Shown: piece by piece, positions 32,114 to 62,163 of the stretch
How positions within the stretch are numbered: the first letter of the stretch is position 1
Layout of the letters: each line of letters opens with the position of its first letter
Assembly: GCF_001693515.2 (NCBI RefSeq)
Contig: NZ_CP042968.1
Coordinates: forward strand, 5,952,001-6,016,000
Source of the DNA: Bradyrhizobium paxllaeri
GTDB lineage: Bacteria; Pseudomonadota; Alphaproteobacteria; Rhizobiales; Xanthobacteraceae
DNA length: 64,000 nt
Direction of reading: 5' to 3'
Notes under the pieces: model-generated
Databases searched by the model: none
What the model was told of the DNA's origin: nothing
The model's input: the letters and a program-made list of their open reading frames with translations, nothing else
Position numbers and translations under genes: made by a program

Positions 32114-32138
32114 GGAAACGTCGGGAAGTTCGCGCGTT
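32114..32138 (+). promoter_or_regulatory. EcfG-like promoter, GGAAA-N16-CGTT
   Basis: GGAAA at 32114-32118 and CGTT at 32135-32138 lie 34 bp before ATG 32173. One mismatch to the GGAAC consensus. The paralogous gene ending at 61468 has the same GGAAA variant. Confidence 0.55.
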
Positions 32139-32172
32139 AGCGGACCGAAGCAACGTACTAAAGGAGAGACGT

Positions 32173-32475
32173 ATGCGAACGGCAGCTCTCGCGATGATTG
32201 TCGTTGCCGGAAGCGCGATTGCGTTCCAAGCAACGGCACAACAGCAACAGGCCGCACCTAGTGAGCTAACCAAGCAGCAGATGGACAAAGGGCTCAAGAC
32301 CAGCGAGCCCAACGACCAGATGCAGCGTGATGCCGACAAAGGGGTCAAGACCCGCAACTCCGGAGAATCTGGATACGTGGGCGATCAAGACAAGCCGGGA
32401 GCGTCTGCCCATCCGCCGGGCCGGCCGAACAGTCAGCAAACCACGGGTAGCGGCCAGACTGGCGCCCCGAAATAA
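32173..32475 (+). CDS. Small secreted protein with DKGxKTRNSGExG motif (paralogue 1)
   Basis: 100 aa, ATG 32173 with AAGGAGAG ribosome-binding site. Signal peptide of about 22 residues (ending AFQATAQ). The mature part is hydrophilic. It shares the motif ADKGxKTRNSGExGxVG, then KPGASAHPPGRP, with the protein encoded at 61468-61773. Within this protein a shorter version of the motif (MDKGLKTSEPND) precedes the full one, suggesting internal duplication. No known family. The promoter-like element upstream suggests expression in the general stress response. Confidence 0.75.
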   Translation: MRTAALAMIVVAGSAIAFQATAQQQQAAPSELTKQQMDKGLKTSEPNDQMQRDADKGVKTRNSGESGYVGDQDKPGASAHPPGRPNSQQTTGSGQTGAPK

Positions 32476-32596
32476 AATAGCGTTGCTCACATCTTGAGAG
32501 CTGCGGCAAGGCCAGCCTCTCGGCGATAGCTGATCGGCACGTAAAGCGGCAGGAATTGCGTTAGGAGCGCGCCGCGGCGGCTGCGATGGATCGGAC

Positions 32597-32906
32597 AAAG
32601 TTCGAGAAGTTCGGCAAGGACCCGAGCGGCACGCAGTGTCCTGCGATCGACGGCATCAAAGGAGGCTGACGAGACTGCGGGTGAAGATCGAAGACAAGGC
32701 GGTGCTGGACGCTGCCCTCGTCGCAGTCACGCAGGCCGTCGAGCCCTATGAAATGTGCCGCTACGGCACGCTGATCGCTCGGGCCGAAGGGTTCGGCCAC
32801 GACGAGATCGTTCGCCTCCTGACGACCAATCTGAACGAGGAAAAAGCGGCGAATACCAAGCTCAACACGGTGGCACTGCGGAAGGGCGTCAACGCGGGGA
32901 GCGATG
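32597..32906 (+). pseudogene. Degenerate 5'-truncated copy of the DUF892 gene at 46896
   Basis: Nucleotide sequence closely matches the 3' two-thirds of 46896-47411, from FEKxGKxPxGTQCPAIDGI through to LNTVALRKGVNA. Two single-base insertions near 32655-32690 and loss of one codon break the frame, and the first 70 codons are missing. The ferritin-like metal-ligand His in AVEHYE is Pro (AVEPYE), which confirms loss of function. It reflects duplication or recombination between two places 14 kb apart. It is counted as dead. Confidence 0.75.
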
Positions 32907-33048
32907 ATCGCCCGGCCATGTACGACTCGGCTTGCGCGCGTTTGTGTCCTAATCCCCACACTGGGACTGAAAAGCGTCTGTTTGTTGCTTTTCGAACCGA
33001 CAGGTCAAATGCGTTCATTCCATGCTCTGGTCGGTTGGGAGCCAATAA

Positions 33049-33285
33049 ATGGATCGTTCAATTATTGCCGATGTTCCGCGCGACAAATATGTCGAGCGAT
33101 GTAAGCAACGAGCCTTCGATTATCTCGACCGAGGCGACCTCAGAAACGCGGTCGCCTCGTTCGTCAACAATATGAATGCCCGTCCCGATTGCGAATTGCC
33201 ACAGCACTTGGCCGCGCTTGGCGATTTGCTGCTGACGAGGCACGATGCGCTCGGCTGGAAGGCGCTGATCGAGGAGTTTAGATAA
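33049..33285 (+). CDS. Small conserved hypothetical protein
   Basis: 78 aa, ATG 33049 preceded by GGGAG. Helical throughout: DVPRDKYVERCKQRAFDYLDRGDLRNAVASF, then a second helix pair around GDLLLTRHDALGWKALIEEF. The repeated helix-turn-helix layout resembles one or two TPR-like hairpins, with typical small and aromatic spacing. Coding bias is good. No family name known. Confidence 0.65.
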   Translation: MDRSIIADVPRDKYVERCKQRAFDYLDRGDLRNAVASFVNNMNARPDCELPQHLAALGDLLLTRHDALGWKALIEEFR

Positions 33286-33480
33286 CGATTTCGCCCAGTG
33301 CCAGACCGCCGTCTCTTTCGGCCGGATCATAGTCGGGAAAGCCGAGCATGCGCTTGTTCTACGCCTCGCAGGCGAGCCGGTCCGCTTTCTTGCGTGCTTC
33401 CGTCTCGAACTTGCCGTGCAGTACGCCTAATCGCCGCCAAGGAATTAGGAACTCCGCCCGTTTATTCCGGTTGCCCGGAC

Positions 33481-33759
33481 ATGGATAGTGCACTTGTCAC
33501 ACGCAACCAGTTCAATGTCACCCGGGAAGGGGTCGTTCATAAGCCCACCGATGCCGCCTTCATCCCGGCTCCCGGTAACCCATATTCGGGAAGATTTCGA
33601 GTGGGCCAACTCGCTAATCAGCCCCCAACTGCGAAGGCCTATCCAGTGCCGGATGTTATGAGGCTGATGGGAGAATTATGGGAAGAGTTCGTGACTAGCA
33701 ACCCGGAGCAAGAAGCCAAGGTTAGCACCAAGAGCCCCAGCTCCAGGACGTGGAGCTGA
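33481..33759 (+). CDS. Small hypothetical protein, Bradyrhizobium-type
   Basis: 92 aa from ATG 33481; upstream in-frame sequence is Cys/Arg-rich and looks non-coding. The N-terminus (MDSALVTRNQFNVTREGVVHKPTDAAFIP, then GNPYSG) is of a kind I associate with conserved short rhizobial proteins, with a beta-rich first half and a helix VMRLMGELWEEF. The last residues and the stop lie inside the hairpin of the second repeat element, so the true C-terminus may have been altered by that element. Function unknown. Confidence 0.55.
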   Translation: MDSALVTRNQFNVTREGVVHKPTDAAFIPAPGNPYSGRFRVGQLANQPPTAKAYPVPDVMRLMGELWEEFVTSNPEQEAKVSTKSPSSRTWS

Positions 33760-33840
33760 GGCTCTTGGAGGCCAGAACCACAAAGGGCCACGCCGAAATC
33801 AAAACACCGGGCAGCCGTCGCCCGCTACAACAAAAGTTAA
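33730..33840 (+). repeat. Repeated element, copy 2: hairpin plus ACAACAAAAGTTA tail
   Basis: A strong stem AAGAGCCCCAGCTCC / GGAGCTGAGGCTCTT (33730-33766) is followed by ACAACAAAAGTTAA at 33827-33840, the same order as in 28525-28640. The hairpin could also terminate the gene at 33481. Confidence 0.55.
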
Positions 33841-34813
33841 CCGCGCTCGGTCGACAGCAAGTCACCGGAACACAATGACTGCGCCGACATTTCGGTTGCT
33901 AGAGCGAACGGAACGATGCGGTCTTTCCTCAGTGCGACAATACTCGCTGGGTTTGTGAAACCACTTCGATCGGCCGTTCTTGGGAGAACGGGCCTGTGGT
34001 TGCGGTGGCGCTGCCCGAACTGCAAAAAAACCGATCCGGCCGATCCGGACGACGTGCCAGTAATGCCTGCGATCTTTAAGCCGATCTCAACTAGCGCATC
34101 AGCGCGGGCCAGGTAAGCCGAGCGTTCTTTAAGTCCTTAGGTCAGAGAGCCAACTAAAGAGGCATTGTCCGCCGCCGACCGCGTTGATGCCGCATTCGCG
34201 GCGTCGGAGATCTTTTTAGCGGCGGAGCGCTCACCGACGACCTGTCCGCAGTGAGCGGGAGACGGCCCCCGCTCACGCGGGGCCGTCTCCATTTTGCGGG
34301 GGCGGGCGTCCCTGCCCCCTGCGCAACTGTTCGTAGCGAGACACGCTTGGGCCTTGCCGCCAGCGCTGATGCTGCTTCGACACGGTTCACAAGTGTTGTG
34401 CGAGCAACCTTCCTGAGGTGCATGGGGTGCGGAATCACCCTTCAGAGCACCGCGTTTTCGCAAGGTTATCGCGGAACGTGGCAGCAGCAGGCCTGCACGC
34501 CCGACGTCTGGCGACTCTGCAGCGAGCACGGCGCCCTTGGTTCGCTTCGGCGCCCCTGCAATCGAGAGGGTCGAACGGCCCGCATCGTGGAGAATCCCGG
34601 GCCTCGTAAATAATATTCCCATGAGTCCGGTACCGGACGGTCAAAGGTTCCGGATGGACCTACCGTCCAAGCACCACCGCACGGCCCCCGGCATCTATCG
34701 GTGTTGAGACCGCTTGGCTGTGCTCCCCGGCGCCAGGGGCCGTTTTCGCTCTGTAGAACCCGATGAAGCCTTTGCGGGAGTATAGGCCCTGACATTCGGC
34801 ACCACAGGATGCT
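33841..34813. other. Long region without confident genes
   Basis: About 970 bp. A plus-strand frame 33916-34116 (with CPNCKK near its middle) and several Arg/Pro-rich minus frames are open but show neither ribosome-binding sites nor coherent domain sequence. One strong terminator hairpin is present (listed). This looks like decayed accessory DNA. Confidence 0.45.
34258..34295 (+). terminator. Strong hairpin followed by ATTTT
   Basis: GGAGACGGCCCC and GGGGCCGTCTCC form a perfect 12-bp stem with an 8-9 nt loop, then ATTTTG. It has the form of a rho-independent terminator, but no gene that I can support ends just before it. Confidence 0.6.
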
Positions 34814-35374
34814 TCAGCCGCGCTTGGCTCTCGATGCGTAGCCGGCGGTAACCTCGTCTTTGTGGCCGGCGAACGCAGCCAGTACTTCGGCCTTCTCGCG
34901 CTTCGGGACCTTGGCGAAGTCGAGTGCCCGCCTCAGTTCCGCTGCGACCTCGTCGAATTCCGCCGGGGAGATCCGCAAGTCCCGGTGCGCCTCCTCAAGG
35001 CCAAGGGGCGTCGCGCCAGGCCTAGTGGCCTTGAATTGCAACGGCCCACCCGAAACGTCACAGACCCACAGTGTTCGCATGAACTTGAGACCTGGTAGTC
35101 GTTTCAGATTCTTGGTGTGCCATTCCCTCAGCTGCGGGTTTTTGGACTTCTGGCCGACGATAGGGTTCTTGACGACAGCGTCGCTGAAGTGATCCACGAC
35201 CGCTGCAATGGCGAAAACGCCGCCAAGTCGCTCATACAGGCTTTTGTCCGGCGTGGTTTGCTTGCCCTGCGCATACGCTTGATCGGCCCCCGCCAAAGCC
35301 GCCGGGGCGGCTGTCAGCGCCAACCCTGCGACTACACTTCGTCTGCTGATGGAAGTTGAACGAGCCCTTGGCAT
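34814..35374 (-). CDS. Group 1 truncated haemoglobin, exported (Tat-type signal)
   Basis: 186 aa from ATG 35374, which has a perfect AAGGAGGT site 5-6 bp upstream. A signal with SISRRSVVAGLALTAAP is twin-arginine-like. The mature part has the trHb1 pattern: LYERLGGVFAIAAVVDHF in the first helices, GGP at the E-F region and the proximal-His region LEEAHRDLRISPAEFDEVAAEL. Exported truncated globins are unusual but occur in Rhizobiales; roles include NO or O2 chemistry and peroxide handling in the periplasm. Haem ligation is judged from family alignment only. Confidence 0.78.
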   Translation of the reverse strand: MPRARSTSISRRSVVAGLALTAAPAALAGADQAYAQGKQTTPDKSLYERLGGVFAIAAVVDHFSDAVVKNPIVGQKSKNPQLREWHTKNLKRLPGLKFMRTLWVCDVSGGPLQFKATRPGATPLGLEEAHRDLRISPAEFDEVAAELRRALDFAKVPKREKAEVLAAFAGHKDEVTAGYASRAKRG

Positions 35375-35784
35375 TGGTACCTCCTTATGTCGGGTTCGAA
35401 AAGCCCTGCAGCTCGGCACCGTCTGCAAGCGAGCGGTGCGCATGGCCGCGGCCTTGTCGGTGACCGCCGTGCTGCCCATCGGATGGTTTTGAATGGAAAA
35501 GGTTCCCGGAGAACTTCGGAGTTAGATTCAAACCCGCGGCGCCGTCGTGACTTCGAAATGCACGGTTTGGATCAAATGCAGACATGGACGAGCAGAATTA
35601 CGCGCTTTGCCGCTCCCGCCAGAAGTCCGCGACGCCCCTCCGGCTGATCCAGCCGCGCTCATCCCGACTTGCGGTTGTTAATTCGGTGTCGCGACGATAG
35701 ATCGGAAATACGTTCCTCGAAACAGGAACGTCCCCATAGGGGTCGAGTTAATTCGATCAAACCCACCTTTGAGGGAGTCTAGTC
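35375..35784. promoter_or_regulatory. Divergent intergenic region (globin and PRC-barrel genes)
   Basis: 410 bp between divergent genes. It holds the EcfG-like site for the PRC-barrel gene and the inverted repeat CGTTCC-N8-GGAACG at 35711-35730, which overlaps that site's -35 box. No gene seen. Confidence 0.5.
35725..35749 (+). promoter_or_regulatory. EcfG-like promoter, GGAAC-N16-AGTT
   Basis: GGAAC 35725-35729, AGTT 35746-35749, 36 bp before ATG 35785. The -35 box is also the right arm of the palindrome CGTTCC-N8-GGAACG. Confidence 0.65.
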
Positions 35785-36168
35785 ATGGCCCGCGCAACAG
35801 CCCATCCGGATCATCAATGCATCTCAAGCGAAGACATTCAAGGAACCGAGGTTTATGGAGCAGGTGGAAAGAATATCGGCGAGATTGATCACCTCATCAT
35901 CGACAAAGTGTCAGGCCGAGTAGCTTATGCCGTCATGAGCTTTGGCGGCTTCGTTGGGTTGGGGCACAGCCATTATCCCATTCCTTGGGCTGCTCTGACC
36001 TACGATACATCGCTTGGTGGTTTTCGAACCGCTATCACCGAACAACAGCTGAGGGACGCGCCAGAGTTCAGTGATGACTCGTGGCAGGACAGAGACTGGG
36101 AAACGCGCACCCACCAGTACTACGGGACACCGACGTACTGGGAGTCACGAGGTGGCATGATACGCTAG
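35785..36168 (+). CDS. PRC-barrel domain protein
   Basis: 127 aa. Residues 13-85 match the PRC-barrel: SSEDIQGTEVYGAGGKNIGEIDHLIIDKVSGRVAYAVMSFGGF and then HYPIPWAALTYD. These small beta-barrels occur in stress proteins and in RNA and photosynthetic-reaction-centre partners; in rhizobia they are typical general-stress genes. GAGGGA ribosome-binding site, EcfG-like promoter just upstream and a strong bidirectional terminator just downstream make it a single-gene unit. The aromatic tail (YYGTPTYWESRGG) is typical of the group. Confidence 0.88.
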   Translation: MARATAHPDHQCISSEDIQGTEVYGAGGKNIGEIDHLIIDKVSGRVAYAVMSFGGFVGLGHSHYPIPWAALTYDTSLGGFRTAITEQQLRDAPEFSDDSWQDRDWETRTHQYYGTPTYWESRGGMIR

Positions 36169-36208
36169 GCAGCGCATCTGAACTGTCGGGTGTAGCCAGC
36201 TAAGCGAT

Positions 36209-36416: not shown

Positions 36417-36442
36417 GGAACCACCGAACATCTATGGACGTT
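36417..36442 (+). promoter_or_regulatory. EcfG-like promoter, GGAAC-N17-CGTT
   Basis: GGAAC 36417-36421 and CGTT 36439-36442. It lies 51 bp before ATG 36494 and overlaps an upstream in-frame ATG at 36434, which therefore cannot be the start. Confidence 0.7.
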
Positions 36443-36493
36443 TTCCTGCATCCCTCATTTCGAGCGAGAGACAACCTCAAGCAGGAGGTTCAG

Positions 36494-36889
36494 ATGTCCA
36501 CACGCACAGCAATCACAGCAGCATTCGCCCTTGTCCTCGCGGGGCCAGCGTTTGCTGATTGTAACCAAGAACTGAAAACGCTCGAACAGAATGTCGTTGC
36601 CGCCGGGACGGGCGCGAGCACGAGCGAAACGGGAATGCCGGGGACCAAGCACCAAGAGGAGGTTCTGGCCACCAAGCAAAAGAGCGGTGAGCCTGAAACC
36701 ACCGGATCAACGGCACCGGCTGTGACTCCCACTTCACCGCATCAGGAGCAAGTTACCAAGCGCGGCACTCAGAGCGCCGAACATGCCAACCAGCTGATTG
36801 CCGAAGCCCGCAAGTTGTCCGCGGCTGGCAACGAACAAGAGTGTATGAAGAAAGCGGCAGAGCTCAAGGACGTCCTGGGAATCAAGTGA
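36494..36889 (+). CDS. Small secreted stress-type protein
   Basis: 131 aa from ATG 36494 (AGGAGGT site 5 bp upstream; the promoter excludes the longer frame). Signal peptide of about 20 residues ending PAFA before DCNQEL. The mature protein has a helical N-part, a Gly/Thr/Ser-rich middle with two similar motifs (TKHQEEVLATK and SPHQEQVTKR) and a helical end QLIAEARKLSAAGNEQECMKKAAELK. Two cysteines far apart (DC and EC) could form a disulfide in the periplasm. No family recognised. Downstream GTAAAAACGGCCGC is not a clear terminator. Confidence 0.75.
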   Translation: MSTRTAITAAFALVLAGPAFADCNQELKTLEQNVVAAGTGASTSETGMPGTKHQEEVLATKQKSGEPETTGSTAPAVTPTSPHQEQVTKRGTQSAEHANQLIAEARKLSAAGNEQECMKKAAELKDVLGIK

Positions 36890-38840: not shown

Positions 38841-39056
38841 TTAGGCCTGAGCGAGTTCGATCTGCTCAGAACGTTTTGTGTTCGCATCGTAAACCTTGAT
38901 CTGAAGGTTGGAAAAACGCGTCTTCAAGCCCTTGGCTGCTTGGATAGCAAAATCTCGGGTTTCGAACTCCTGCTTCGCGTGGCCATCAACGATGAGGGCG
39001 TAACCACTTGTCGGAAGGTCGGTCGGCGCCCTGATCGTTGCGGCTCGCGCCGCCAC
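38841..39056 (-). CDS. Small hypothetical protein with one alpha/beta unit
   Basis: Up to 71 aa (GTG start at 39056 is provisional; the first 13 residues are Ala/Arg-rich). The core TSGYALIVDGHAKQEF - TRDFAIQAAKGLKTRF - LQIKVYDANTKRSEQ is a strand-helix-strand pattern found in short Bradyrhizobium proteins of unknown function. Coding bias is convincing from Leu-Pro-Thr onward. It lies opposite the small membrane peptide genes. Confidence 0.65.
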   Translation of the reverse strand: MAARAATIRAPTDLPTSGYALIVDGHAKQEFETRDFAIQAAKGLKTRFSNLQIKVYDANTKRSEQIELAQA

Positions 39057-39200
39057 AGGCGTTCGTTGCGTGCGCTATTGTCGCATGGTGGAAGCTCCAA
39101 ATGGGGGATGCTTTACAACGACCCTGCAACGCAACTGTTCCACGAACTGCACGAGCAAGGACCGGATGTGTGTTGCGTTGCAAGACACGGTGACGGATCG

Positions 39201-39225
39201 GGAACAAGTTGCAATGGCCCAAGTT
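39201..39225 (+). promoter_or_regulatory. EcfG-like promoter, GGAAC-N16-AGTT
   Basis: GGAAC 39201-39205, AGTT 39222-39225; 34 bp before the ATG of the 26-residue peptide at 39260, which has an excellent ribosome-binding site. Both features support each other. Confidence 0.6.
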
Positions 39226-39259
39226 GCTCCATTGAGGGCAAACTGAGGAGGAGCAACTT

Positions 39260-39340
39260 ATGCCGGTTATATTGTTGTGGGCTGTGCCGACCATTATCGT
39301 CGTGGGGGCGTCATACTATTTGGTTCGCGCCGTCCACTAG
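39260..39340 (+). CDS. 26-residue single-pass membrane peptide
   Basis: ATG 39260 to TAG 39340: a hydrophobic helix (VILLWAVPTIIVVGASYYLV) with a short basic end (RAVH). The ribosome-binding site GAGGAGG lies 8 bp upstream, close to ideal. With an EcfG-like promoter 34 bp before the start, this is one of the best-supported tiny genes in the window. Function unknown; likely a stress-induced small membrane protein. Confidence 0.68.
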   Translation: MPVILLWAVPTIIVVGASYYLVRAVH

Positions 39341-42636: not shown

Positions 42637-42661
42637 AACTCACGCTGTGTTGAATCGTTCC
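42637..42661 (-). promoter_or_regulatory. EcfG-like promoter of the DUF3618 operon, GGAAC-N16-AGTT
   Basis: On the minus strand GGAAC is at 42661-42657 and AGTT at 42640-42637, 30 bp before ATG 42606. Spacing is in the expected range. Confidence 0.65.
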
Positions 42662-43257: not shown

Positions 43258-44055
43258 TTATGATTTTGCCGTACCAGGCTCCGCCTTCTTGCGATGCTGC
43301 TTGGCAAGGAGTTCGGCCGGCGTCACATTGGCAACCGCCGATTGGATTTTGTTTTTCAGGCCGGTGACAACATCCCCTTCGCCCTTCATCATGGCCTCAA
43401 AGCCCATTCGGGCGACCATGGCGGCGTCATCCTTGTCTTCGGATCCGACTTTAGTATCGAGCATGTCCGCACGGACGAAGAACTCCGTTTCCGTAGCCCC
43501 GGGCATCAAGCAGGTAACGGTAACCTTCGTACCGCGCAGTTCCTCCCGCAGCGCGAATGAGAATGAATTCAAATAGGCCTTGGTCGCATTGTAGACCGCC
43601 TGAAAGCTGCCGGGGGTGAAGCCGGCAATCGAGCCGGTGATCAGAATGCGTCCTTCATTGCGACGCCGCATGTCCTGGCCAACACGGTGGATCAGACAGG
43701 TGGTGCCGGTGGCATTAGTGTCGATGACCCGACGAATGCGGTCCCAGTCCTGATCAAGGAAAGCATGGCCTAGGCCGCGGCCGGCATTGGCCATCAGCAA
43801 GTCAACTTTGCGGTCCTGAGCGGCCTCACAGAGCTTGTCGACACCTTTGACGGTGGCAAGGTCGGCTTGAACCGTCACGATGGCGCTACTGTTCGCTTCG
43901 TCGCGCAGCGCTTGCGCGGCCGTCTCGATTTCGGGCTCATCCGCCGCGACCAGAAGGTCGTAGCCCTTGGCCGCGCAAAGTCGGGCAAGCTCAAAACCAA
44001 TGCCGGTCGAGGCGCCTGTCACGATCGCAAATTGTCCGGCCATGGCCATCTCCAT
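43258..44055 (-). CDS. SDR family NAD(P)-dependent oxidoreductase
   Basis: 265 aa. Classical SDR: cofactor motif TGASTGIGFELA, NAG motif as MANAGRGL, catalytic Ser in ITGSIAG and YxxxK as YNATK, all with normal spacing. The C-terminal part is longer than usual and ends basic (AKQHRKKAEPG). This group is often called DltE/YqjQ-like oxidoreductase. Substrate unknown. It is divergent from the alcohol dehydrogenase gene; the shared 128-bp region has a CGTTCC-type and a GGAAC box but no correctly spaced EcfG pair. Confidence 0.88.
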   Translation of the reverse strand: MEMAMAGQFAIVTGASTGIGFELARLCAAKGYDLLVAADEPEIETAAQALRDEANSSAIVTVQADLATVKGVDKLCEAAQDRKVDLLMANAGRGLGHAFLDQDWDRIRRVIDTNATGTTCLIHRVGQDMRRRNEGRILITGSIAGFTPGSFQAVYNATKAYLNSFSFALREELRGTKVTVTCLMPGATETEFFVRADMLDTKVGSEDKDDAAMVARMGFEAMMKGEGDVVTGLKNKIQSAVANVTPAELLAKQHRKKAEPGTAKS

Positions 44056-44182
44056 CTAGGCTTTCCGCATTTTTAGTTGGCTTTGGACCTAATCGAACTG
44101 ACGCGAGACCGTTCCTATTTGGAAAAGGAACAAGCCGCTGCGCTCACGCTTGGTCTCGTCAAACACCTCTTTGGAGCAGTCC

Positions 44183-45358
44183 ATGAAAGCCCTCACCTGG
44201 CACGGCAAGAGCGATGTTCGCTGTGAATCGGTTCCCGATCCGAAGATTCAGAATGGGCGCGACGCAATCATCAAGGTAACGGCCTGCGCGATCTGCGGCT
44301 CGGATCTGCATCTGTTCGACGGCATCATGCCGACGATGGAAAAGGGCGACGTACTCGGCCACGAGACCATGGGCGAGGTTGTCGAGGTCGGCAAGGACAA
44401 CACGAGGCTCAAGGTGGGGGATCGGGTAGTGGTGCCGTTCACCATTGCCTGCGGCGAATGCTTCTTTTGCAAGAATGGCTTTTACTCCGGCTGCGAACGC
44501 TCCAACCCCAACGCGAAGCAGGCCGAGAAACTCTGGGGCCATTCTCCAGCCGGCCTCTTCGGCTATTCGCATATGCTGGGCGGTTTCGCCGGCGGCCAGG
44601 CGGAATACATGCGCGTCCCCTATGCCGACGTCGGTCCCTACAAGATTCCAGAGGGGCTCACGGATGAGCAGGTGTTGTTCCTGTCAGATATCTTCCCGAC
44701 TGGCTACATGGCCGCCGATTTCTGCAACCTCAAGGGCGGAGAGACGGTTGCGGTGTGGGGCTGCGGACCGGTTGGCCAATTTGCAATCAAGAGCGCATTC
44801 TTGCTGGGCGCCGAGCGTGTGATTGCGATCGATACGGTACCCGAGCGCCTGGCGCTCGCTACGAACTCAGGCGCCATCACGCTGGATTTCATGAAGGAAG
44901 ATATTTACGAGCGCATCCAAGAACTCACGCAAGGTCGCGGCGCCGATGCCTGCATCGATGCGGTCGGCACCGAGCCCGAAACCAAGGCAAGCGCGGATTC
45001 CGTGATTGACCGTATCAAGGTAGCAACCTTCATGGGTACGGATCGTCCGCATGTTTTGCGGCAGGCGATCCAATGCTGCCGCAACTTCGGCACCGTTTCC
45101 ATCGTCGGCGTTTATGGAGGCATGCTTGACAACATTCCCATGGGCAGCGCAATCAATCGCGGCCTAACCTTTCGCATGGCCCAGACCCCCGTTCAGCACT
45201 ACCTGCCCAAACTGATGGAACGCATCGGAAAAGGCGAGATCGATCCAAGCTTCGTCATCACCCATCGCGCTACGCTTGACGAGGGGCCAGACCTCTACAA
45301 GACGTTCCGGGCCAAGAAGGATGGCTGCATCAAAGTAGTCATGAAGCCGTTCGGCTGA
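44183..45358 (+). CDS. Zinc-dependent alcohol dehydrogenase (MDR family)
   Basis: 391 aa from ATG 44183 (GGAG 6 bp upstream); upstream in-frame codons are unlikely. It has catalytic zinc ligands in CAICGSDLH and [12 protein letters not shown], structural zinc cysteines in [15 protein letters not shown], and a Rossmann motif [15 protein letters not shown]. It matches the glutathione-independent formaldehyde-dehydrogenase-like or threonine-dehydrogenase-like subgroup. Likely role: oxidation of an alcohol or aldehyde adduct during stress or C1 metabolism; the exact substrate is not determined by sequence. Confidence 0.9.
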
Positions 45359-46837: not shown

Positions 46838-46862
46838 GGAACCCCCAAGGGGCAACGACGTT
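46838..46862 (+). promoter_or_regulatory. EcfG-like promoter, GGAAC-N16-CGTT (perfect)
   Basis: GGAAC 46838-46842, CGTT 46859-46862; 34 bp before ATG 46896. Exact match to the consensus. Confidence 0.8.
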
Positions 46863-46895
46863 CCATTGCCATCATTGCGAAAGGAGACGTCGAAT

Positions 46896-47411
46896 ATGGG
46901 AATCTTCACCAAGGACATCAAAACCATGGAGGACTTGCTGATCCATGGCCTGCAGGACATCTACTACGCTGAGCAGCAGATCATCAAATCCCTGCCCAAG
47001 ATGATCGAAAAGGCGACCAACCGCGACCTCGCCGCGGGTCTGAAAGCCCATCTCGAAGAGACAAACAAGCAGGTCGAGCGACTTCAAAAGGTGTTCGAGA
47101 AGCTCGGCAAGGAGCCGACCGGCACGCAGTGTCCCGCGATCGATGGTATCATCAAGGAGGCCGACGAGACGGCGGGCGAGATCGAGAACAAGGCGGTACT
47201 GGACGCCGCCCTCGTCGCAGCCGCGCAGGCCGTCGAGCACTATGAAATATGCCGATACGGCACGCTGATCGCTTGGGCCGACGAGCTCGGCCACGACGAG
47301 ATCGTGCGCTTCCTGACTACCAATCTGAACGAGGAAAAGGCGGCGAATACCAAGCTCAACACGGTAGCACTGCGCAAGGGCGTCAACGCGAAAGCGTCCG
47401 ACGCGGCCTGA
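46896..47411 (+). CDS. DUF892 (YciE/YciF) ferritin-like stress protein
   Basis: 171 aa from ATG 46896 (AAAGGAGA site 12 bp upstream). Four-helix ferritin-like bundle: MEDLLIHGLQDIYYAEQQIIKSLPKM, LKAHLEETNKQVERLQKVFE, KAVLDAALVAAAQAVEHYEI and LGHDEIVRFLTTNLNEEKAAN; the Glu and His residues in HLEET, EHYE and NEEK are the usual di-metal ligands. Family members are general-stress ferroxidase-like proteins. The gene is preceded by a perfect EcfG-type promoter and followed by a terminator at 47432. A damaged partial copy lies at 32597, and a related domain is fused to Mn catalase at 59876. Confidence 0.9.
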   Translation: MGIFTKDIKTMEDLLIHGLQDIYYAEQQIIKSLPKMIEKATNRDLAAGLKAHLEETNKQVERLQKVFEKLGKEPTGTQCPAIDGIIKEADETAGEIENKAVLDAALVAAAQAVEHYEICRYGTLIAWADELGHDEIVRFLTTNLNEEKAANTKLNTVALRKGVNAKASDAA

Positions 47412-48858: not shown

Positions 48859-49483
48859 GTTCGTTTTCCTTCGAGATGGCCGTGGCGATCGGATAGCCGG
48901 TCCACAGCCGCAGCAAGCGCTCAAGGGCCGCTCCGAGCGCGAAGCCCAGGACGACGTCGCTCGCCCAGTGCGCCAGGACCACAACCCGCGTCAGCGAGAG
49001 ACCGATCGCGAAGGCTCGGATCGCCCGGCGGGGCTCAACCGGCAAGGTCCCGGCTGCGGATGCCAACGCGCCCATGTGAATCGCATGCCCGGAAGGAAAG
49101 GCGTCGTCGCGCTTTCCGGAAAAGGAGACTCCATGGATGTGCCCGACCACTGTCCTGCGATCGGGCCGGGTCTGGTCGAACAACGACTTCATGACGTGGG
49201 GCAGCAAAGACGATGCTGCCGTAACGAGCAGCGCGTGATTACCTGCACGCCGCAACGACTCGCTGCGGCCCCGGGAGACGATCCAGCCAGCCGTGGCCAG
49301 AACCAACAGGACCTTTTCGTCGGCACCCCAGGTCAAGGCGCGAGCCGCGTACTCCGGGGCCGGAGCCGTGTTGCGGGCGATCTCGTGCGCGATACCGACG
49401 TCCACCTTCGTTGGCCGGACGGCGATCGGAAAGCTTCGTCCGCGGCGGAGGCTATGTCCTGGAAATCTGGCCGGCTTCAACAT
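48845..49483 (-). CDS. PAP2 superfamily membrane phosphatase
   Basis: 212 aa from ATG 49483. It has the three PAP2 signatures KSLFDQTRPD (KxxxxxxRP), FPSGHAIHMG (PSGH) and LTRVVVLAHWASDVVLG (SRxxxxxHxxxD type, with Thr in place of Ser). Several transmembrane helices flank them. Such enzymes remove phosphate from lipid phosphates such as undecaprenyl pyrophosphate or phosphatidic acid at the outer side of the inner membrane. First gene of a four-gene operon (PAP2, cupin, DUF3147 pair). A GGACC-N16-CGTT sequence 31-56 bp upstream may be its promoter. Confidence 0.85.
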   Translation of the reverse strand: MLKPARFPGHSLRRGRSFPIAVRPTKVDVGIAHEIARNTAPAPEYAARALTWGADEKVLLVLATAGWIVSRGRSESLRRAGNHALLVTAASSLLPHVMKSLFDQTRPDRRTVVGHIHGVSFSGKRDDAFPSGHAIHMGALASAAGTLPVEPRRAIRAFAIGLSLTRVVVLAHWASDVVLGFALGAALERLLRLWTGYPIATAISKENEHADT

Positions 49484-49514: not shown

Positions 49515-49539
49515 AACGCGCCACGTGCCGGCAAGGTCC
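49515..49539 (-). promoter_or_regulatory. Weak EcfG-like promoter, GGACC-N16-CGTT
   Basis: On the minus strand, GGACC at 49539-49535 and CGTT at 49518-49515; 31 bp before ATG 49483. One mismatch in the -35 box. Confidence 0.4.
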
Positions 49540-49772: not shown

Positions 49773-49797
49773 GGAACCTAGCTTTTGCTCCGCAGTT
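49773..49797 (+). promoter_or_regulatory. EcfG-like promoter, GGAAC-N16-AGTT
   Basis: GGAAC 49773-49777 and AGTT 49794-49797. It lies 25 bp before ATG 49822 and only 12 bp before ATG 49810, which favours the later start. Confidence 0.65.
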
Positions 49798-49821: not shown

Positions 49822-50025
49822 ATGCAGGCAGCAATTGACCGCGTAATGCAGACCTTCGTGATGATGGCCAGCCTCACTCCCGAAGAGGCAAGGGCCGCGC
49901 AAGAAAGGCTGACGGCACATTTGGCCGGCATAGAGGCCGACGAAAAGACGCTCGCAGTCGAGGGGCTTCGCTATCTGCGCGGCCCCGATCGTGTTTCCAG
50001 GCGACGGATCGCAAGGACGATCTGA
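49822..50025 (+). CDS. Small helical stress-type protein
   Basis: 67 aa from ATG 49822 (GGAGGA 5 bp upstream; the ATG at 49810 would sit inside the leader). The helix pair MQAAIDRVMQTFVMMASLTPEEARAAQERL... and a basic end (PDRVSRRRIAR) resemble many short rhizobial stress proteins. Its stop TGA overlaps the ATG of the DUF3606 gene (TGATGA at 50023-50028), so they form a two-gene unit with the EcfG-like promoter. Function unknown. Confidence 0.65.
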   Translation: MQAAIDRVMQTFVMMASLTPEEARAAQERLTAHLAGIEADEKTLAVEGLRYLRGPDRVSRRRIARTI

Positions 50026-50204
50026 TGACGGATAACCTTACAACCAGAGAGCAGCCTGACCGAAGTAAGATCAATATGAACCAGATCCATGAGGTTCGGT
50101 ATTGGACGAAGCACCTCAACGTTTCGAAGGAAGAATTACAGAAGGCCGTCGAGAAAGTCGGAAATTCAGCCGCCGCCATCCGCAAGGAATTGGCGGTGGA
50201 GTGA
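50025..50204 (+). CDS. DUF3606 domain protein
   Basis: 59 aa. The DUF3606 signature is clear: DRSKINMNQIHEVRYWTKHLNV then SKEELQKAVEKVGNSAAAIRKEL. These proteins of about 60 residues are widespread in Rhizobiales and are induced in stationary phase or under stress; the molecular role is unknown. It is translationally coupled to the preceding small gene. Confidence 0.85.
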   Translation: MTDNLTTREQPDRSKINMNQIHEVRYWTKHLNVSKEELQKAVEKVGNSAAAIRKELAVE

Positions 50205-51764: not shown

Positions 51765-51789
51765 GGAACCAAGCTCTTCGGTCACCGTT
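51765..51789 (+). promoter_or_regulatory. EcfG-like promoter, GGAAC-N16-CGTT (perfect)
   Basis: GGAAC 51765-51769, CGTT 51786-51789; 22 bp before ATG 51812. Confidence 0.75.
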
Positions 51790-51811: not shown

Positions 51812-52435
51812 ATGGCTATGTCGAAGATCGTTGGATTACGCTACGGAGCGCCGAGCGCCAGCGCGATGCACCTATGCGTCGATATGCAAAGGATGTTTGC
51901 AGAACGCACGGAATGGAAGATGCCGTGGCTTGAGCGCGTGCTGCCTAATATCGTTTCAATAACTTCCTTGCATCCCGAAAGGACCATCTTCACGCGCTTC
52001 ATCCCAGCACAGCATTCCGGTCAGGGCATGGGGATGTGGCGGCGCTATTACGAGCATTGGGCATCGATGACCGTCGATGAGCTCGGCGCGGACATGATAA
52101 ATGTGGTGCCGGAGCTTGCGCGGTTTGCCCCTCCTGCCCGCTACTTCGACAAGTATGTTTATTCCCCTTGGACCGCGAGCGATCTGGACCGGCAGCTTCG
52201 CGGCGCCGGAATCGATACCCTCATTATCACCGGCGGAGAGACCGATGTCTGCGTGCTCGCAACCATGATGGGCGCTGTCGACTGGGGTTTCCGTGTCCTT
52301 CTGGTGACGGACGCCCTGTGCAGCTCGGCGGACGAGACGCACGATGCAATGATGAATGTCTATGAGAACCGGTTAGCCCAGCAGGTGGAATGCGTGTCGA
52401 CGGAAGCGATTCTCGAAAATTGGCGCCTCAAGTAA
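51812..52435 (+). CDS. Isochorismatase-like cysteine hydrolase
   Basis: 207 aa. Catalytic triad positions of the isochorismatase-like superfamily are visible: Asp in HLCVDMQRMF, Lys in DKYVYSPW and Cys in GGETDVCVLATMMGAVDWGF. The family includes nicotinamidases, isochorismatases and N-carbamoyl hydrolases. The short lid region suggests a small amide substrate. It is preceded by an exact EcfG-type promoter and is followed 41 bp later by a small membrane protein that is probably co-transcribed. Confidence 0.87.
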   Translation: MAMSKIVGLRYGAPSASAMHLCVDMQRMFAERTEWKMPWLERVLPNIVSITSLHPERTIFTRFIPAQHSGQGMGMWRRYYEHWASMTVDELGADMINVVPELARFAPPARYFDKYVYSPWTASDLDRQLRGAGIDTLIITGGETDVCVLATMMGAVDWGFRVLLVTDALCSSADETHDAMMNVYENRLAQQVECVSTEAILENWRLK

Positions 52436-53885: not shown

Positions 53886-54658
53886 AAGCTGAGAGCACGA
53901 AGGACCCGCCTGAATTGAAGTCATCAGTCTATGTGGGATGCTCGGGCTGGCGTTACTGGAACTGGCGGGACTCGTTCTATGCAGGTGTTCCACAGGAAAA
54001 GTGGTTCGAGCACTACCTGAAGCGCTTCGACACCGTCGAAATCAACGCATCCTTCTATTCCTGGCCGACGGTTGCCAACGTCCAGGCTTGGCGGCGCCAG
54101 CCCGGCAAGAGGAAGTTCATCTACACCGTCAAGGTCTGTGAGCTCGTCAGTCATGTAAAATCGTTCAAGGGCACAAGGACACTCATTCGGGATTTTGGCA
54201 CCATCGCTGATATTCTAGGTGAAAGGATGGGCTGCTTCCTGTTCCAGCTGCCGCCGAGCTACCGCTATTCAAACGCGCGGCTGAACGCGATCGTGAGCCA
54301 ACTCGATCCTGCGCGCCGCAACGTGGTGGAGTTTAGGCACGCCAGCTGGTGGAATGAGGAAGTTTATGCCGCGTTCCGAAACGCCGGAATTATCTTCTGC
54401 TCCTGCAGCGGGCCGCGTCTGCCCGACGAACTTATCCGGACAGCCGACGAAGTTTACATTCGCCTGCATGGTCCCAAGCGCTGGTATCGGCACGACTACT
54501 CCAAGGGCGAGCTGGCGATCTGGGCGGACAGGATCAGGGCGAGTGGTGCGAAAAGAGCCTGGATTTACTTCAACAACGACAATGAAGCTCATGCACCAGA
54601 AAACGCGGCAGCTCTGCGGCGAATGCTAAGCCGTACCGTTGGCCAAAGGCCGGACTAG
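53882..54658 (+). CDS. DUF72 domain protein (YecE-like)
   Basis: 258 aa from ATG 53882. It matches the TIM-barrel-like DUF72 family: VYVGCSGWRYWNWRDSFYAG at the start, FDTVEINASFYSWP, LFQLPPSYRY, VEFRHASWW and VYIRLHGP motifs in the usual order. Members are conserved from bacteria to archaea; no enzyme activity is established. It forms a small operon with the DAO-Rieske gene, which starts 48 bp later. Confidence 0.88.
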   Translation: MKAESTKDPPELKSSVYVGCSGWRYWNWRDSFYAGVPQEKWFEHYLKRFDTVEINASFYSWPTVANVQAWRRQPGKRKFIYTVKVCELVSHVKSFKGTRTLIRDFGTIADILGERMGCFLFQLPPSYRYSNARLNAIVSQLDPARRNVVEFRHASWWNEEVYAAFRNAGIIFCSCSGPRLPDELIRTADEVYIRLHGPKRWYRHDYSKGELAIWADRIRASGAKRAWIYFNNDNEAHAPENAAALRRMLSRTVGQRPD

Positions 54659-54706
54659 GAACTCGCCAGGATCGTACGCGTTCTCAAGTGGTTGGGAGAC
54701 CGTCTC

Positions 54707-56212
54707 ATGGCCAGCACATCTCTTTGGATGGATACTGACATTGCCCCGACCGCGGGAGTTCTGGACGGCGTCCGAGAATGCGACGTCGCCATCATCGGCT
54801 CTGGCATTGCCGGCATTTCGACCGCGTATGAGCTCTGCAGGCGAGGCAAATCCGTTATTGTCATCGATCGCGGACGCATCTGCGGAGGCATGACATCGAG
54901 GACTTCAGCCCATCTTGCCCCTTTGTGCGATGATCTCGTCAGCGAGATGAAAAAGATCAGGGGCAAGGAGGCGACGACGCGTTTTTGCGACAGCCAGGCG
55001 GCTGCGGTCGACCGCATCGAAGAAATCCAGAAGAAGGAGAAAATCGATTGCGACTTTCGCCGTCTCGACGGGTTCCTCTTCCAGGGTCACGGTATGCCGG
55101 CAGACATCATCGATGAAGAGCTGGAGGCAGTCCGCGAAGTCGGCGCGCCGGTCCACAGGCTCGTGGGTGTGCCCTTTACCGGCTGCGAGAAGCGTCACGT
55201 CCTGCGCTATCCCAAGCAGGCGACCTTTCATCCGCTCAAGTATCTTGCCGGCGTTGCGCAGGCTTGCGAGGAGAGCGGCGCGACTTTTTTCCGTGACAGC
55301 CCTGTTGAGGAAGTAACTGAAGAGAATGGCATTGTGACCGCGAAAACAGCACGCGGCGTCATTCGCGCCCGGCACGCGGTCGTCGCGACCAACTCCTCGA
55401 TATCTGACCGCTTCGCCATTCACACCAAGACGGCGCCATACCGGACATATGTGATCACGTTTGAAATCGATCGCGGCGCGCTGCCCGATGCCCTCTACTG
55501 GGATACGGAAGACCCCTACCATTATGTCCGCCTGCAGCCAGGCCAGGCAAATACCGATTACATTCTCGTCGGTGGTGAGGACCACAAAAGCGGAGAAGCC
55601 GACGACGCGGAGGATCGATTCAGAAAGCTTGAAGCATGGGCGCGCGGCTTGATCTCCGGCCTCGGCAAAGAAACGCATCGCTGGTCAGGGCAAGTGCTCG
55701 ACACCATCGATTACTCCGGCTTCATTGGCCGCGATCCCGGGGGCACGAATATCTATGTCGCGATGGGCGATTCCGGACAAGGCCTCACGCACGGCGTTGC
55801 TGGCGCGATGCTGAATGCCGGACTGATCATGGGCGAAGACCATCCATGGAAGGAAATCTACGCGCCGGGCCGCGTCCCGCTGAAGGCCGCGAAGAATTTC
55901 GTGGCGGAGAATGTAACAGCGCTCAAGAGCTTTGCTGAATATGTGGCCCCAGGCGAGCTCACTTCACTCGAAGCGCTGCCGCGCGGCGACGGCGCCATCA
56001 TCCGGCGCGGCCTTGAGAAGATTGCCGCCTATCGCGACATGAAGGGAGCGCTGCATTTGAATTCGGCGAGTTGCACCCATGTCGGCTGCCATCTGCACTG
56101 GAACAGTTTTGAGACTTGCTGGGATTGCCCTTGCCACGGCTCAATCTTCGACGTGAAAGGACAACCCATCAACGCGCCGGCTATCGGCCCGCTTGCCCGC
56201 GTTCAGGAATAA
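54707..56212 (+). CDS. DAO-type FAD oxidoreductase with C-terminal Rieske [2Fe-2S] domain
   Basis: 501 aa from ATG 54707 (GGGAGA upstream). N-terminal D-amino-acid-oxidase fold: VAIIGSGIAGISTAYEL and IDRGRICGGMTSRTSAHL. From about residue 400 there is a Rieske domain with CTHVGC and CPCHGSIFD, the complete two-Cys, two-His ligand set. The family couples FAD-dependent amine oxidation to a Rieske electron acceptor and is common in stress islands. It is probably cytoplasmic, as no signal is present. It is in the DUF72 operon. Confidence 0.9.
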   Translation: MASTSLWMDTDIAPTAGVLDGVRECDVAIIGSGIAGISTAYELCRRGKSVIVIDRGRICGGMTSRTSAHLAPLCDDLVSEMKKIRGKEATTRFCDSQAAAVDRIEEIQKKEKIDCDFRRLDGFLFQGHGMPADIIDEELEAVREVGAPVHRLVGVPFTGCEKRHVLRYPKQATFHPLKYLAGVAQACEESGATFFRDSPVEEVTEENGIVTAKTARGVIRARHAVVATNSSISDRFAIHTKTAPYRTYVITFEIDRGALPDALYWDTEDPYHYVRLQPGQANTDYILVGGEDHKSGEADDAEDRFRKLEAWARGLISGLGKETHRWSGQVLDTIDYSGFIGRDPGGTNIYVAMGDSGQGLTHGVAGAMLNAGLIMGEDHPWKEIYAPGRVPLKAAKNFVAENVTALKSFAEYVAPGELTSLEALPRGDGAIIRRGLEKIAAYRDMKGALHLNSASCTHVGCHLHWNSFETCWDCPCHGSIFDVKGQPINAPAIGPLARVQE

Positions 56213-56445: not shown

Positions 56446-56453
56446 AAACGACA

Positions 56454-57851: not shown

Positions 57852-57855
57852 TTCG

Positions 57856-59130: not shown

Positions 59131-59609
59131 TGTTCTATTTCCTTCTCAAGATGGCGCATATCATTGGAGCCGCCGTGCTGCTCGGCACAGGTGCCGGTAT
59201 CGCTTTCTTCATGCTGGTGGCGCATCTGCGCGGCGACCCACGCGAGATAGCGGGCGTCGCACGGACGGTGGTGCTTGCCGACTTTCTGTTTACGGCGAGT
59301 GCCGTGATCCTTCAGCCGATCACCGGCACCTGGCTCGCCTGGTCGAGCGGATATTCCCTGCGCGATGGATGGATTACAGCGTCGATCGCACTCTATGTAG
59401 TGGTCGGCGCCTTTTGGCTTCCGGTGGTGTGGATGCAGATGCGGATGCGCGACCTTGCCGTTCACGCGGTCAAGACGGACGCCAACCTGCCGGCTGAATA
59501 CCACCGCCTTTTTCGCCGGTGGTTTGCCTTTGGGTTTCCGGCATTCGCCGCGGTGCTCATGATCTTCTGGCTGATGATCGCCCGTCCGGTCATTCCATAC
59601 TGGGATTAG
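59130..59609 (+). CDS. DUF2269 family membrane protein
   Basis: 159 aa. Four transmembrane helices, with HIIGAAVLLGTGAGIAFFM in the first and ITGTWLAWSSGYSLRDGW after the second, the DUF2269 pattern. It is the third gene of the operon with the His-rich membrane protein and the SDR-DoxX fusion, coupled by overlap. The conserved trio suggests a membrane complex. Function unknown. Confidence 0.88.
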   Translation: MFYFLLKMAHIIGAAVLLGTGAGIAFFMLVAHLRGDPREIAGVARTVVLADFLFTASAVILQPITGTWLAWSSGYSLRDGWITASIALYVVVGAFWLPVVWMQMRMRDLAVHAVKTDANLPAEYHRLFRRWFAFGFPAFAAVLMIFWLMIARPVIPYWD

Positions 59610-59815
59610 TATCACGTATCGGGTCAAAGGCTTCGATAGGCATGTGATCGCGACCTGCGCGAGCTGTATCTCCATTCCCAATTTCAGTGCCAAGATTGAC
59701 GCAAACATTATGCGGCAACCAATGTTCCTATTGAGCCGGGTGCCCCCCGCTCTTTCGTGTCGCCCAGCCCGCCTCGAGCTTGAGGAGCCCTAGGGACCCG
59801 AATCCTCGTTCGATA

Positions 59816-59840
59816 GGAACGAACGACATCGGGCAGCGTT
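59816..59840 (+). promoter_or_regulatory. EcfG-like promoter, GGAAC-N16-CGTT (perfect)
   Basis: GGAAC 59816-59820, CGTT 59837-59840; 35 bp before ATG 59876 of the Mn-catalase fusion. Confidence 0.8.
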
Positions 59841-59875
59841 CGGGATGATTATCCCTCTCGCTCTCGGGGCCTTCC

Positions 59876-61144
59876 ATGTACCATCATGTCAAGAAGCTGA
59901 TGTTCACCGTCCGCGTCGATGAACCGGACCCTCGTTTTGGCAATATGCTTCTTGAACAATTCGGCGGCGCCAACGGCGAACTCGCGGCCGCGATGCAATA
60001 TTCGATTCAGGGCTTGAACTGCGAGGATCCGGATCGCAAGGATCTGCTGATGGATATCGGCACCGAGGAACTGAGCCATCTCGAAATCGTGGGCACCCTG
60101 GCCCGCATGCACCTCCAGCCGACGAAATTCGATCGCCAGGCGGCCGAAGCCGATCCCCTGATTGCGATCGCGGGCGGCGGCGGAGTGAACCTGTTCAATT
60201 CCCAGGGCAACGCCTGGACTGCCGATTACCTCAAGATCACGGGCGAGCTCGACGTCGACCTGCGCAGCAACATTGCCGCCGAAGCCCGCGCCAAGATCGT
60301 TTATGAGCGGCTGATCAATTTCTGCGATGACGCTGGCACAAAGGACGCGCTGCAGTTCTTGATGACCCGGGAAATTACCCACATGAAGGCCTTCGCGTTG
60401 GCACTCGAGAGCATGGGCAAGCCCGCCTTCAGCATCGGTCGCATCGCGCCCACGCCTGGATTGGTCGACCAGTACTTCAACGACTCCACCGGAACGGGAG
60501 AGCATGGTGAGATCGACACTCGCGGTCCATGGAACGAGGGCAACGGTTGGGTTTTTACAGAATCGCCGGCCATACAGGCCGAACCCGGCGCCTCCGCAGC
60601 AATCGTTACGGAAAGTTCGCCGCCGGCCGAGCAAGCCGGGTTGAGCGACCTGTTGATCGATGAGCTCCGCGACATCCTTCACGCCGAGAAACAACTGACG
60701 AAAGCGCTTCCCAAGATGGCGGAAGCCGCGCGCTTCGATCAATTGCGCGAACTCTTCGAGCAGCATCTCGTCGAGACCGAGAATCAAGTGGAGCGCATCA
60801 ATGAGTGCTTCGAGCTCCTCAGCAAAACGGCTCGCGCCAAACCTTGCAAGGGCATGATGGGGCTCGTGGAGGAAGGCCAGGAGATTATGGCCGAGGGCGA
60901 AGAAAAGGACGATGCCGCGGCCGACCTCGCATTGATCGGAGCGGCGCAGCGTGTGGAGCACTATGAGATCTCGGCTTACACGACGGCGAAGAACCTCGCC
61001 CAGCAATTACGCCACAGCGCAGTCGTCGCGCTGCTGTCGAAGTCGCTGGCGGAAGAAGAGAATTCGGATCAGTTACTCAACCAAGTCGCTCGATCGCTGA
61101 TGTCAGTAGCGAAAATGCCTGCCGCGATTGAACAGGCCGAATAG
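59876..61144 (+). CDS. Manganese catalase fused to a DUF892 ferritin-like domain
   Basis: 422 aa. Residues about 1-235 are a dimanganese catalase: GANGELAAAMQYSIQG (Glu35), IGTEELSHLEIV (Glu65, His68), AEARAKIVYE and REITHMKAF (second Glu and His). A flexible Pro/Ala-rich linker (about 236-255) leads to a DUF892 domain (256-415) with DILHAEKQLTKALPKM, LVETENQVERI, RVEHYEI and AEEENSDQLL. Mn catalases dismute hydrogen peroxide; DUF892 domains are ferroxidase-like. The fusion could couple peroxide removal and iron handling. It is preceded by an exact EcfG-type promoter. No signal peptide, so cytoplasmic. Confidence 0.9.
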   Translation: MYHHVKKLMFTVRVDEPDPRFGNMLLEQFGGANGELAAAMQYSIQGLNCEDPDRKDLLMDIGTEELSHLEIVGTLARMHLQPTKFDRQAAEADPLIAIAGGGGVNLFNSQGNAWTADYLKITGELDVDLRSNIAAEARAKIVYERLINFCDDAGTKDALQFLMTREITHMKAFALALESMGKPAFSIGRIAPTPGLVDQYFNDSTGTGEHGEIDTRGPWNEGNGWVFTESPAIQAEPGASAAIVTESSPPAEQAGLSDLLIDELRDILHAEKQLTKALPKMAEAARFDQLRELFEQHLVETENQVERINECFELLSKTARAKPCKGMMGLVEEGQEIMAEGEEKDDAAADLALIGAAQRVEHYEISAYTTAKNLAQQLRHSAVVALLSKSLAEEENSDQLLNQVARSLMSVAKMPAAIEQAE

Positions 61145-61467
61145 CGCAGAAATGCAGTCCTTCCGACGAACCTCGCCAATCAGCCGCTGCGTTGCGTGAG
61201 GAAGCCGAATCGGTTCTCGCGCCCGCGCACCCCCCGCGGTCGAACGGAAAGTGGGACATCCAAGACTGGTCCGCATATGAGCTCCGGTGGCTGCGGTCCC
61301 CCGGCTGGATTGCATTCTGGGAGGTGAGATCCGCATCAGCTTGAGGAATTTCTTGAGCGCTACGATATAGGCCCATCCAGTTGCCGCTGCCGATTGCGAT
61401 CCAATCAGACAGCTAACCTTTGCAATCGGGGCGGGCCGCCTCCTTCGTACCGTCAATTGTTCAGCAG
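61145..61467. other. Intergenic region, nothing recognised
   Basis: 323 bp between the catalase and the convergent small secreted protein. No clear terminator. The open frames in it run into the catalase gene in shadow or have no start. Confidence 0.4.
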
Positions 61468-61773
61468 CTAGCGTGGGGTGGGGCTAGTTTCAGTACCTTG
61501 GCCGCTGCCCGTACCAGCGCCCGTCCCGGTAGTGGTCTGGCTGTTGCCGGGATCGGGACGTCCCGGCGGATGCGCGGAAGCACCAGGCTTTTCCTGCTGT
61601 CCCACGAATCCGGCTTCTCCGGAGTTGCGAGTCTTAATGCCTTTGTCCGCTTCCTCCTGCATCTGCTTGTCAGACTGCATCTGCTGGCCGGGCGTTGTCG
61701 AATGCTGCGCCAATGCGGGCGCGGCGGTGGCTATACAAAGAGCGGCCGTCGTGGCCAGAACTAAGGTTCGCAT
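61468..61773 (-). CDS. Small secreted protein with DKGxKTRNSGExG motif (paralogue 2)
   Basis: 101 aa from ATG 61773 (GGGAGG site 7 bp upstream). Signal peptide of about 22 residues ending PALAQ. The mature part has QMQSDKQMQEEADKGIKTRN then SGEAGFVG, KPGASAHPPGRP and a Thr/Gly-rich tail, matching the protein at 32173-32475 over about 40 residues. Hydrophilic and disordered. An EcfG-like GGAAA-N16-CGTT element lies upstream, the same variant as at the paralogue. Function unknown; a stress-secreted hydrophilin-like role is inferred. Confidence 0.78.
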   Translation of the reverse strand: MRTLVLATTAALCIATAAPALAQHSTTPGQQMQSDKQMQEEADKGIKTRNSGEAGFVGQQEKPGASAHPPGRPDPGNSQTTTGTGAGTGSGQGTETSPTPR

Positions 61774-62163
61774 GGGCTGTCCTCCCGTCGTCCCTCTCCG
61801 CACAACGCGTGAGCCAGCGATAGTTTCCTGGAGAACTAAATGAGGTGAGCGCAGGAATCCAAACTCACAAGCTCCATGTGCCGCTATGGCAACTGGATAT
61901 CGAAACATCAGGCACAACGTCCGAGCGGCCTATACTCTTAGCATTTGCTCGGCCAATGCTCCGGGTCGGTGACCGGAGCCGCCAACGACGGAGCTCTTCT
62001 TCCCAGACTTTGGGAGGCGCAAACCGAAAACGTGGGATTGGACTCCACAATTGCGCCGACGGAGGGCTGGGGCCATTCCGCATTCAAGTCGCACTAGGAA
62101 CGAAAGCAATGAGCGGCGCTTTTCCGTGGGTGAAACTAAACAGAACCTAGGGAGATCATTTTA
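61774..62163. promoter_or_regulatory. Divergent region between two small secreted protein genes
   Basis: 390 bp. It contains the EcfG-like site for the minus gene (61804-61828). A GGAAC-N17-CTTT sequence at 62097-62122 could be a poor variant for the plus gene at 62164. No coding frame supported. Confidence 0.45.
61804..61828 (-). promoter_or_regulatory. EcfG-like promoter, GGAAA-N16-CGTT
   Basis: On the minus strand GGAAA 61828-61824 and CGTT 61807-61804, 30 bp before ATG 61773. Confidence 0.6.

Follow-up and report, generated by a model that had tools for sequence, protein, structure and literature searches.

The 31-64 kb portion of the window (the whole 64,000-nucleotide stretch of Bradyrhizobium paxllaeri DNA analysed here, contig positions 5952001-6016000 of a single-contig genome of 8,377,719 bases) is very probably an accessory island of stress-protection genes, comprised of units with their own promoters for sigma-EcfG, which we take to be ECF15. 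Under stress, PhyR would be phosphorylated and would take NepR off EcfG, and EcfG-RNA polymerase would then transcribe the genes for a Mn-catalase/DUF892 fusion, a DUF892 ferritin-like protein, a PRC-barrel protein, DUF3618 envelope proteins, an oxidoreductase, and small secreted proteins, with a palindromic promoter at the DUF892 gene probably firing both ways. As the units carry their own predicted promoters, a host with a conserved PhyR-NepR-EcfG system would express the island without a local regulator. We infer EcfG dependence, protein functions, and bidirectional firing from the sequence. An earlier note on this DNA had proposed an EcfG-type stress island rather than scattered genes, and site clustering, enrichment, and footprints in relatives all support that proposal.

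Thirteen candidate sites were identified in 30 kb, for ~36 genes; gene calling relied on our own codon-based script, which missed small genes. All 11 sites reported previously were recovered at the same positions and on the same strands, and start codons do lie close downstream of them in the right orientation, 22-51 bp past the -10 box (counted from the end of the box to the start codon). The three exact GGAAC-N16-CGTT sites of the earlier note (46838, 51765, and 59816) stand, but two further exact sites, at 39117-39141(-) and 54658-54682(+), had been overlooked. Three of the sites have GGAAA or GGACC as the -35 box.

Across relatives, the boxes are retained while the spacer drifts. A set of 80 named DUF892 loci was compiled, 70 from Bradyrhizobium and the rest from Afipia, Rhodopseudomonas, Tardiphaga, and other family members, the nearest relatives (96%) being B. 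jicamae PAC68 and Bradyrhizobium sp. LMTR 3. The DUF892 site is exact in 69 of the 79 usable named loci, relaxed in 77, and has GGAAC in 78; in a separate 30-locus set it is exact in 29/29 oriented loci. The own copy is counted in this 30-locus tally and in those for the PRC-barrel, 36494, DUF3618, Mn-catalase fusion, and 61773 genes. Upstream of the Mn-catalase/DUF892 fusion gene (59876-61144), the exact site at 59816-59840(+) could be compared in 29 oriented loci of 30, with GGAAC in 28/29 (the remaining locus being a run of N), C/AGTT in 20/29, and the exact form in 19/29. The newly located site at 54658-54682(+), found by the motif scan before the FAD/Rieske oxidoreductase gene (54707-56212), is exact in 19/21 usable relatives. 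GGAAC-N16-AGTT precedes both the DUF3618 operon (42606-39886(-); site at 42637-42661(-)) and the PRC-barrel gene (35785-36168; pattern match at 35725-35749(+)), and is retained in 25/25 and 22/23 usable loci, respectively, each of 30, with GGAAC in 23/23 for the PRC-barrel gene. The GGAAC-N17-CGTT site at 36417-36442(+), before the gene at 36494-36889 (secreted product, without a Pfam match), is exact in 8/8 distinct copies. Two small secreted protein genes, whose families overlap, follow GGAAA-N16-CGTT: that at 32173-32475, behind a pattern match at 32114-32138(+), has a relaxed site in 22/25 distinct family members, nearly all with GGAAA, and that starting at 61773(-), behind 61804-61828(-), has a site in 16/19 usable loci (of 30), mostly GGAAA. 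Gene families therefore keep distinct variants, AGTT for DUF3618 and PRC and GGAAA for the secreted proteins, and this retention suggests tuned promoter strengths. Exact or relaxed sites precede the operon-internal neighbours in none of the relatives searched (DUF3147 0/17, 47909 0/17, cupin 0/14), nor BrkB (0/5) or DUF72 (0/3). The predicted promoters are strong calls.

The proposed density of sites was borne out against both shuffled sequence and the rest of the genome. GGAAC-N16-CGTT occurs five times in the window, compared with a shuffle mean of 0.49, and 0/100 shuffles reached five; the N17 form is not enriched (one in the window vs 0.51 in shuffles). The pattern GGAA[CA]-N16/17-[CA]GTT lies upstream of 6/41 genes at 28-64 kb and 5/642 background genes from 35 stretches of 20 kb, with all starts called by the script. 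With refined starts, 12 of the 17 matches to the full pattern of the earlier note in 28-64 kb have a start codon 22-51 bp downstream in the right orientation, whereas 300 sets of random starts averaged 0.44 and reached at most 4; 359 permutations of the boxes averaged 0.045, the highest value being 4, as against 5 for the exact motif. Six of these 12 refined starts are outside the final gene calls (35785 and 36494 came from a first gene caller, and 39260, 49483, 51812, and 61773 were placed with the site in view), so 6/41 is the unbiased figure. Across the whole genome the raw exact pattern is not enriched, with 118 matches vs 136 for the reversed pattern. Among the 100 matches listed of these 118, 57 are promoter-like (5-110 bp upstream of a gene on the right strand) vs 16 on the opposite strand, and 23 fall within called genes. 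In the 80 named DUF892 loci, which are related strains and not independent, 84/130 exact sites other than that of DUF892 itself are in promoter position, whereas 50 permuted motifs averaged 1.78; 12 would be so placed in the wrong orientation.

The site at the DUF892 gene was unexpected in form. At 46838-46864, between the ROK gene (46750-45680(-)) and the DUF892 gene (46896-47411(+)), the sequence is a palindromic GGAAC-N16-CGTTCC that gives a promoter reading on both strands, with the -35 box of each strand overlapping the -10 box of the other. The added CC follows the -10 box of the DUF892 promoter in 57/77 loci and is found in 1/84 of the other promoter-position sites of the same loci. In the genome of B. 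paxllaeri it occurs in 2/57 promoter-like matches among those listed, one of which is the DUF892 site itself (1/56 otherwise). When 90 distinct DUF892 promoters were compared, the palindrome occurred in 43/43 with a divergent match to a small protein of 62-64 aa, in 15/22 with another divergent gene, and in 9/25 with none called. The small protein has no Pfam match. Its mapped start lies 22-31 bp past the reverse -10 box in 39/42 rows, 36/43 matches are open from ATG through 60 codons at that start, and substitutions over 399 pairs number 1216, 729, and 5127 at the first, second, and third codon positions, indicating that the gene is coding. GGAAC-N16/17-CGTT also precedes the ROK gene, the divergent gene in the window, in 4/7 usable relatives.

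These data suggest that the DUF892 site is, on balance, a bidirectional EcfG promoter. The fuller proposal is favoured by a slighter degree: that a whole ECF-type promoter may be palindromic, the -35 box of each strand complementing the -10 box of the other; that the 27-bp palindrome would drive DUF892 and a divergent partner (the 62-64 aa protein, ROK, or isochorismatase) in mutually exclusive firings; and that islands made up of self-contained EcfG units like this one would become part of the stress regulon of any alphaproteobacterium they reached. The strongest of the competing explanations, though an unlikely one, is that the palindrome acts as an operator for a dimeric regulator, or as a preferred discriminator, with no second promoter. 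Its retention in 9 of the 25 loci without a called divergent gene would fit such a role, as would a reverse -10 box that is TGTT in most loci and CGTT in 8/57. The loci that lack the palindrome are, except L157, all below 87% identity, so that shared descent confounds the link to the small gene and may itself explain the pattern. An operator or discriminator does not readily account, however, for the near absence of CC at the other sites, for the unbroken association with the small gene, or for the narrow range of distances to its start. Of three copies of the small gene found away from DUF892, that in L084 follows an exact site of its own, and the other two are without a site. Elsewhere in the window, 32681-33175 matches only profile positions 87-150 of 159 of DUF892 and is probably a decayed copy.

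The island as a whole is likely to be a unit. Thirteen of its genes (51-95% identical) recur in a paralogous island at 1.447-1.499 Mb, which has its own EcfG-type sites. With six matches each, the two islands share first place for density in 40 kb among the 100 exact matches listed of 118; P for such a maximum is ~0.016 under uniform placement of the listed matches. The sixth match of the window island is an exact site outside the window, to its right, at contig position ~6022111 (L005) before a small open reading frame (ORF). Low coding density and G+C below 0.60 continue to ~6.036 Mb, and the island therefore probably extends rightward past the window. Left of the island are the remnant of an IS21-type transposase and istB (29461-31136(+); Pfam Mu-transpos_C_2 and IstB_IS21). 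By our own gene caller, coding density is low in 32-40 kb. G+C is 0.587-0.621 in 28-64 kb vs a background of 0.627, and similarly low at 12-28 kb. In 38/80 loci DUF892 has further island genes nearby, the number being 17 in L103, 16 in L104, and 15 in L168. Plasmids carry the Mn-catalase fusion as well, two of them from Bradyrhizobium barranii (88%) and two from Rhizobium (75-76%). Of 98 genomes of the genus the secreted family is present in 47, DUF3618 in 34, and 36494 in 7. A third cluster, with four exact matches in 40 kb among the matches listed, is located at contig 4440196-4463527.

The promoters could be real and yet merely serve ordinary stress genes that adjoin decayed insertions, with no island as an evolutionary unit. 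This is a doubtful explanation, somewhat behind that of an operator at DUF892, and several observations that favour it, or otherwise weigh against a sigma-EcfG island, should be set out together. In the 40 kb of flanking sequence on each side, too, G+C is mostly below the mean, and with values low both left and right composition gives no island border. No tRNA was found in the window or 100 kb of its flanks, other junctions not having been searched, and no integrase turned up among the 40 proteins compared with Pfam, a set that misses some window genes. At the thresholds applied, 42/80 DUF892 loci showed no other island gene within ~10 kb; 19 of these 80 loci span less than 20 kb. The DUF892-type and PRC-type genes are nearly universal in the genus (95/98 and 98/98 genomes). 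Many island genes have no site, among them BrkB, TrxR, and DUF72 in the window. Relaxed sites are also found in relatives of genes that lack one here (62164 2/2, 57294 1/2, SDR 1/8, ADH 1/8), so that relaxed matches are imperfectly specific or sites were lost in the window.

Five of the sites are thinly retained, which belongs on the same side. The weakest of those listed previously are 49515(-) and 39201. The first, GGACC-N16-CGTT at 49515-49539(-), precedes a PAP2 operon from ATG 49483, and the cupin and DUF3147 genes sit in an operon behind this site. It recurs in 3/14 relatives, and by eye the paralogous island has it too; the PAP2 gene probably starts at ATG 49483, upstream of the called GTG at 49405. 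The second, GGAAC-N16-AGTT at 39201-39225(+), is a pattern match before a 26-codon ORF with a single membrane span (39201-39340, start at 39260), and in L104, the closest relative, its -35 box has changed; exact sites, N16 in L080 and N17 in the paralogous island (L275), precede homologues of the ORF. The exact site at 39117-39141(-), found by the motif scan before a small gene at ~38841-39056(-), is identical in the sole relative found, again L104. The reading frame of this gene (38841-39086) has an early in-frame stop that is absent from the L104 copy. A pattern match to GGAAC-N16-AGTT at 49773-49797(+), before the gene at 49822-50025 and the DUF3606 gene at 50025-50204, is present in 1/1 relative. 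The exact site at 51765-51789(+), from the motif scan, precedes the isochorismatase-family gene at 51812-52435 and is exact in 3/4 homologues above 70% identity and 3/15 overall; homologues below 50% identity are mostly without a site of their own. Finally, the nepR promoter, which is GGAAC-N16-[CA]ATT in 28/28 oriented loci (of 30), has CATT or AATT as its -10 box, and CGTT in 0/28.

As to whether an island exists, 48/57 promoter-like exact matches among those listed lie outside the two islands and nine lie inside, in what is ~1.2% of the genome with borders set by us; the regulon would thus be genome-wide and the islands its dense nodes. Elsewhere, promoter-like matches precede genes resembling those for Dps, Fe-SOD, Ku, and CsbD (named by eye from translations). 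Against mere adjacency of ordinary stress genes stand the paralogous set of 13 genes, the loci with 15-17 island genes near DUF892, and the clustering of the exact matches, all of which favour the island as a unit.

It is very likely that EcfG reads the sites. The genome has a single NepR match, in a phyR/nepR-ecfG locus with the usual divergent order (by eye from translations). It also encodes a second EcfG-like protein, with 38% identity, at 1.8707 Mb. An EcfG regulon of B. japonicum was reportedly described by Gourion in 2009, and single island genes may already be known EcfG targets. A different sigma factor, such as the second EcfG-like protein, is an improbable reader of the sites, even though the family-specific variants and the differing -10 box of the canonical nepR promoter, together with the existence of that second gene, would be compatible with one. 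GGAAC-N16-CGTT is the EcfG motif of R. etli as given in an excerpt of one report (PMC3892343), and the same pattern appears as the EcfG motif in part of another (PMC4814048). Similar variants, including -10 forms like CATT and AATT, precede EcfG-regulated Sphingomonas genes in a table from PMC6599016. Chance coupled with the selective eye of a reader is a very unlikely explanation: the unenriched raw genome count and the starts set with a site in view would suit it, but script-called starts give the enrichment on their own and boxes are retained in relatives while spacers change.

Three further observations concern neighbouring features. The SDR and ADH genes (43258-45358) are divergent, with GGAAC boxes back to back; GGAAC is found upstream of SDR in 7/8 relatives and of ADH in 6/8. 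The -10 box of SDR is GATT, and no nGTT-type -10 box for ADH (44183) or SDR (43258) was found in the window. The gene at 62819-63250 was considered as an SdrG/MrrA-type regulator, a group marked by the FATGUY motif, and this identity was dropped as the motif is absent (by eye). An Rfam scan of the window gave no matches.

Taken together, these data suggest that accessory genes can join a conserved stress regulon by their promoters alone, here in two paralogous copies in one genome. If correct, two stress genes may also be coupled by mutual exclusion at an ECF-type promoter that is symmetrical throughout. The footprints also provide a checked promoter list for Bradyrhizobium strains that carry these genes. 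In the titles and abstract openings surveyed, there was no account of the island, of a palindromic EcfG promoter, or of the overlap of -35 and -10 boxes.

Like other Bradyrhizobium islands, for example symbiosis islands as described in part of PMC11218460, the island has G+C below the chromosome mean, insertion sequence remnants, and some genes of patchy distribution; unlike them, it has no integrase/tRNA junction that was found and carries stress genes with core general stress response promoters. The DUF892 palindrome resembles the bidirectional promoters of E. coli, in an excerpt of PMC12825309, in having a pseudo-symmetrical element that would allow RNA polymerase two mutually exclusive orientations. 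The E. coli promoters rest on symmetry in a shared -10 element, whereas here the -35 and -10 boxes of opposite strands overlap across a whole ECF-type promoter. The sites as a set resemble the sigma-EcfG regulons of R. etli, M. extorquens, S. melonis, and B. diazoefficiens in their motif (GGAAC-N16/17-CGTT and variants), in the short distance to the start, in their oxidative and envelope stress genes, and in the phyR/nepR-ecfG locus. They differ from these regulons in forming a dense block of accessory DNA, of which the genome contains a second, paralogous version.

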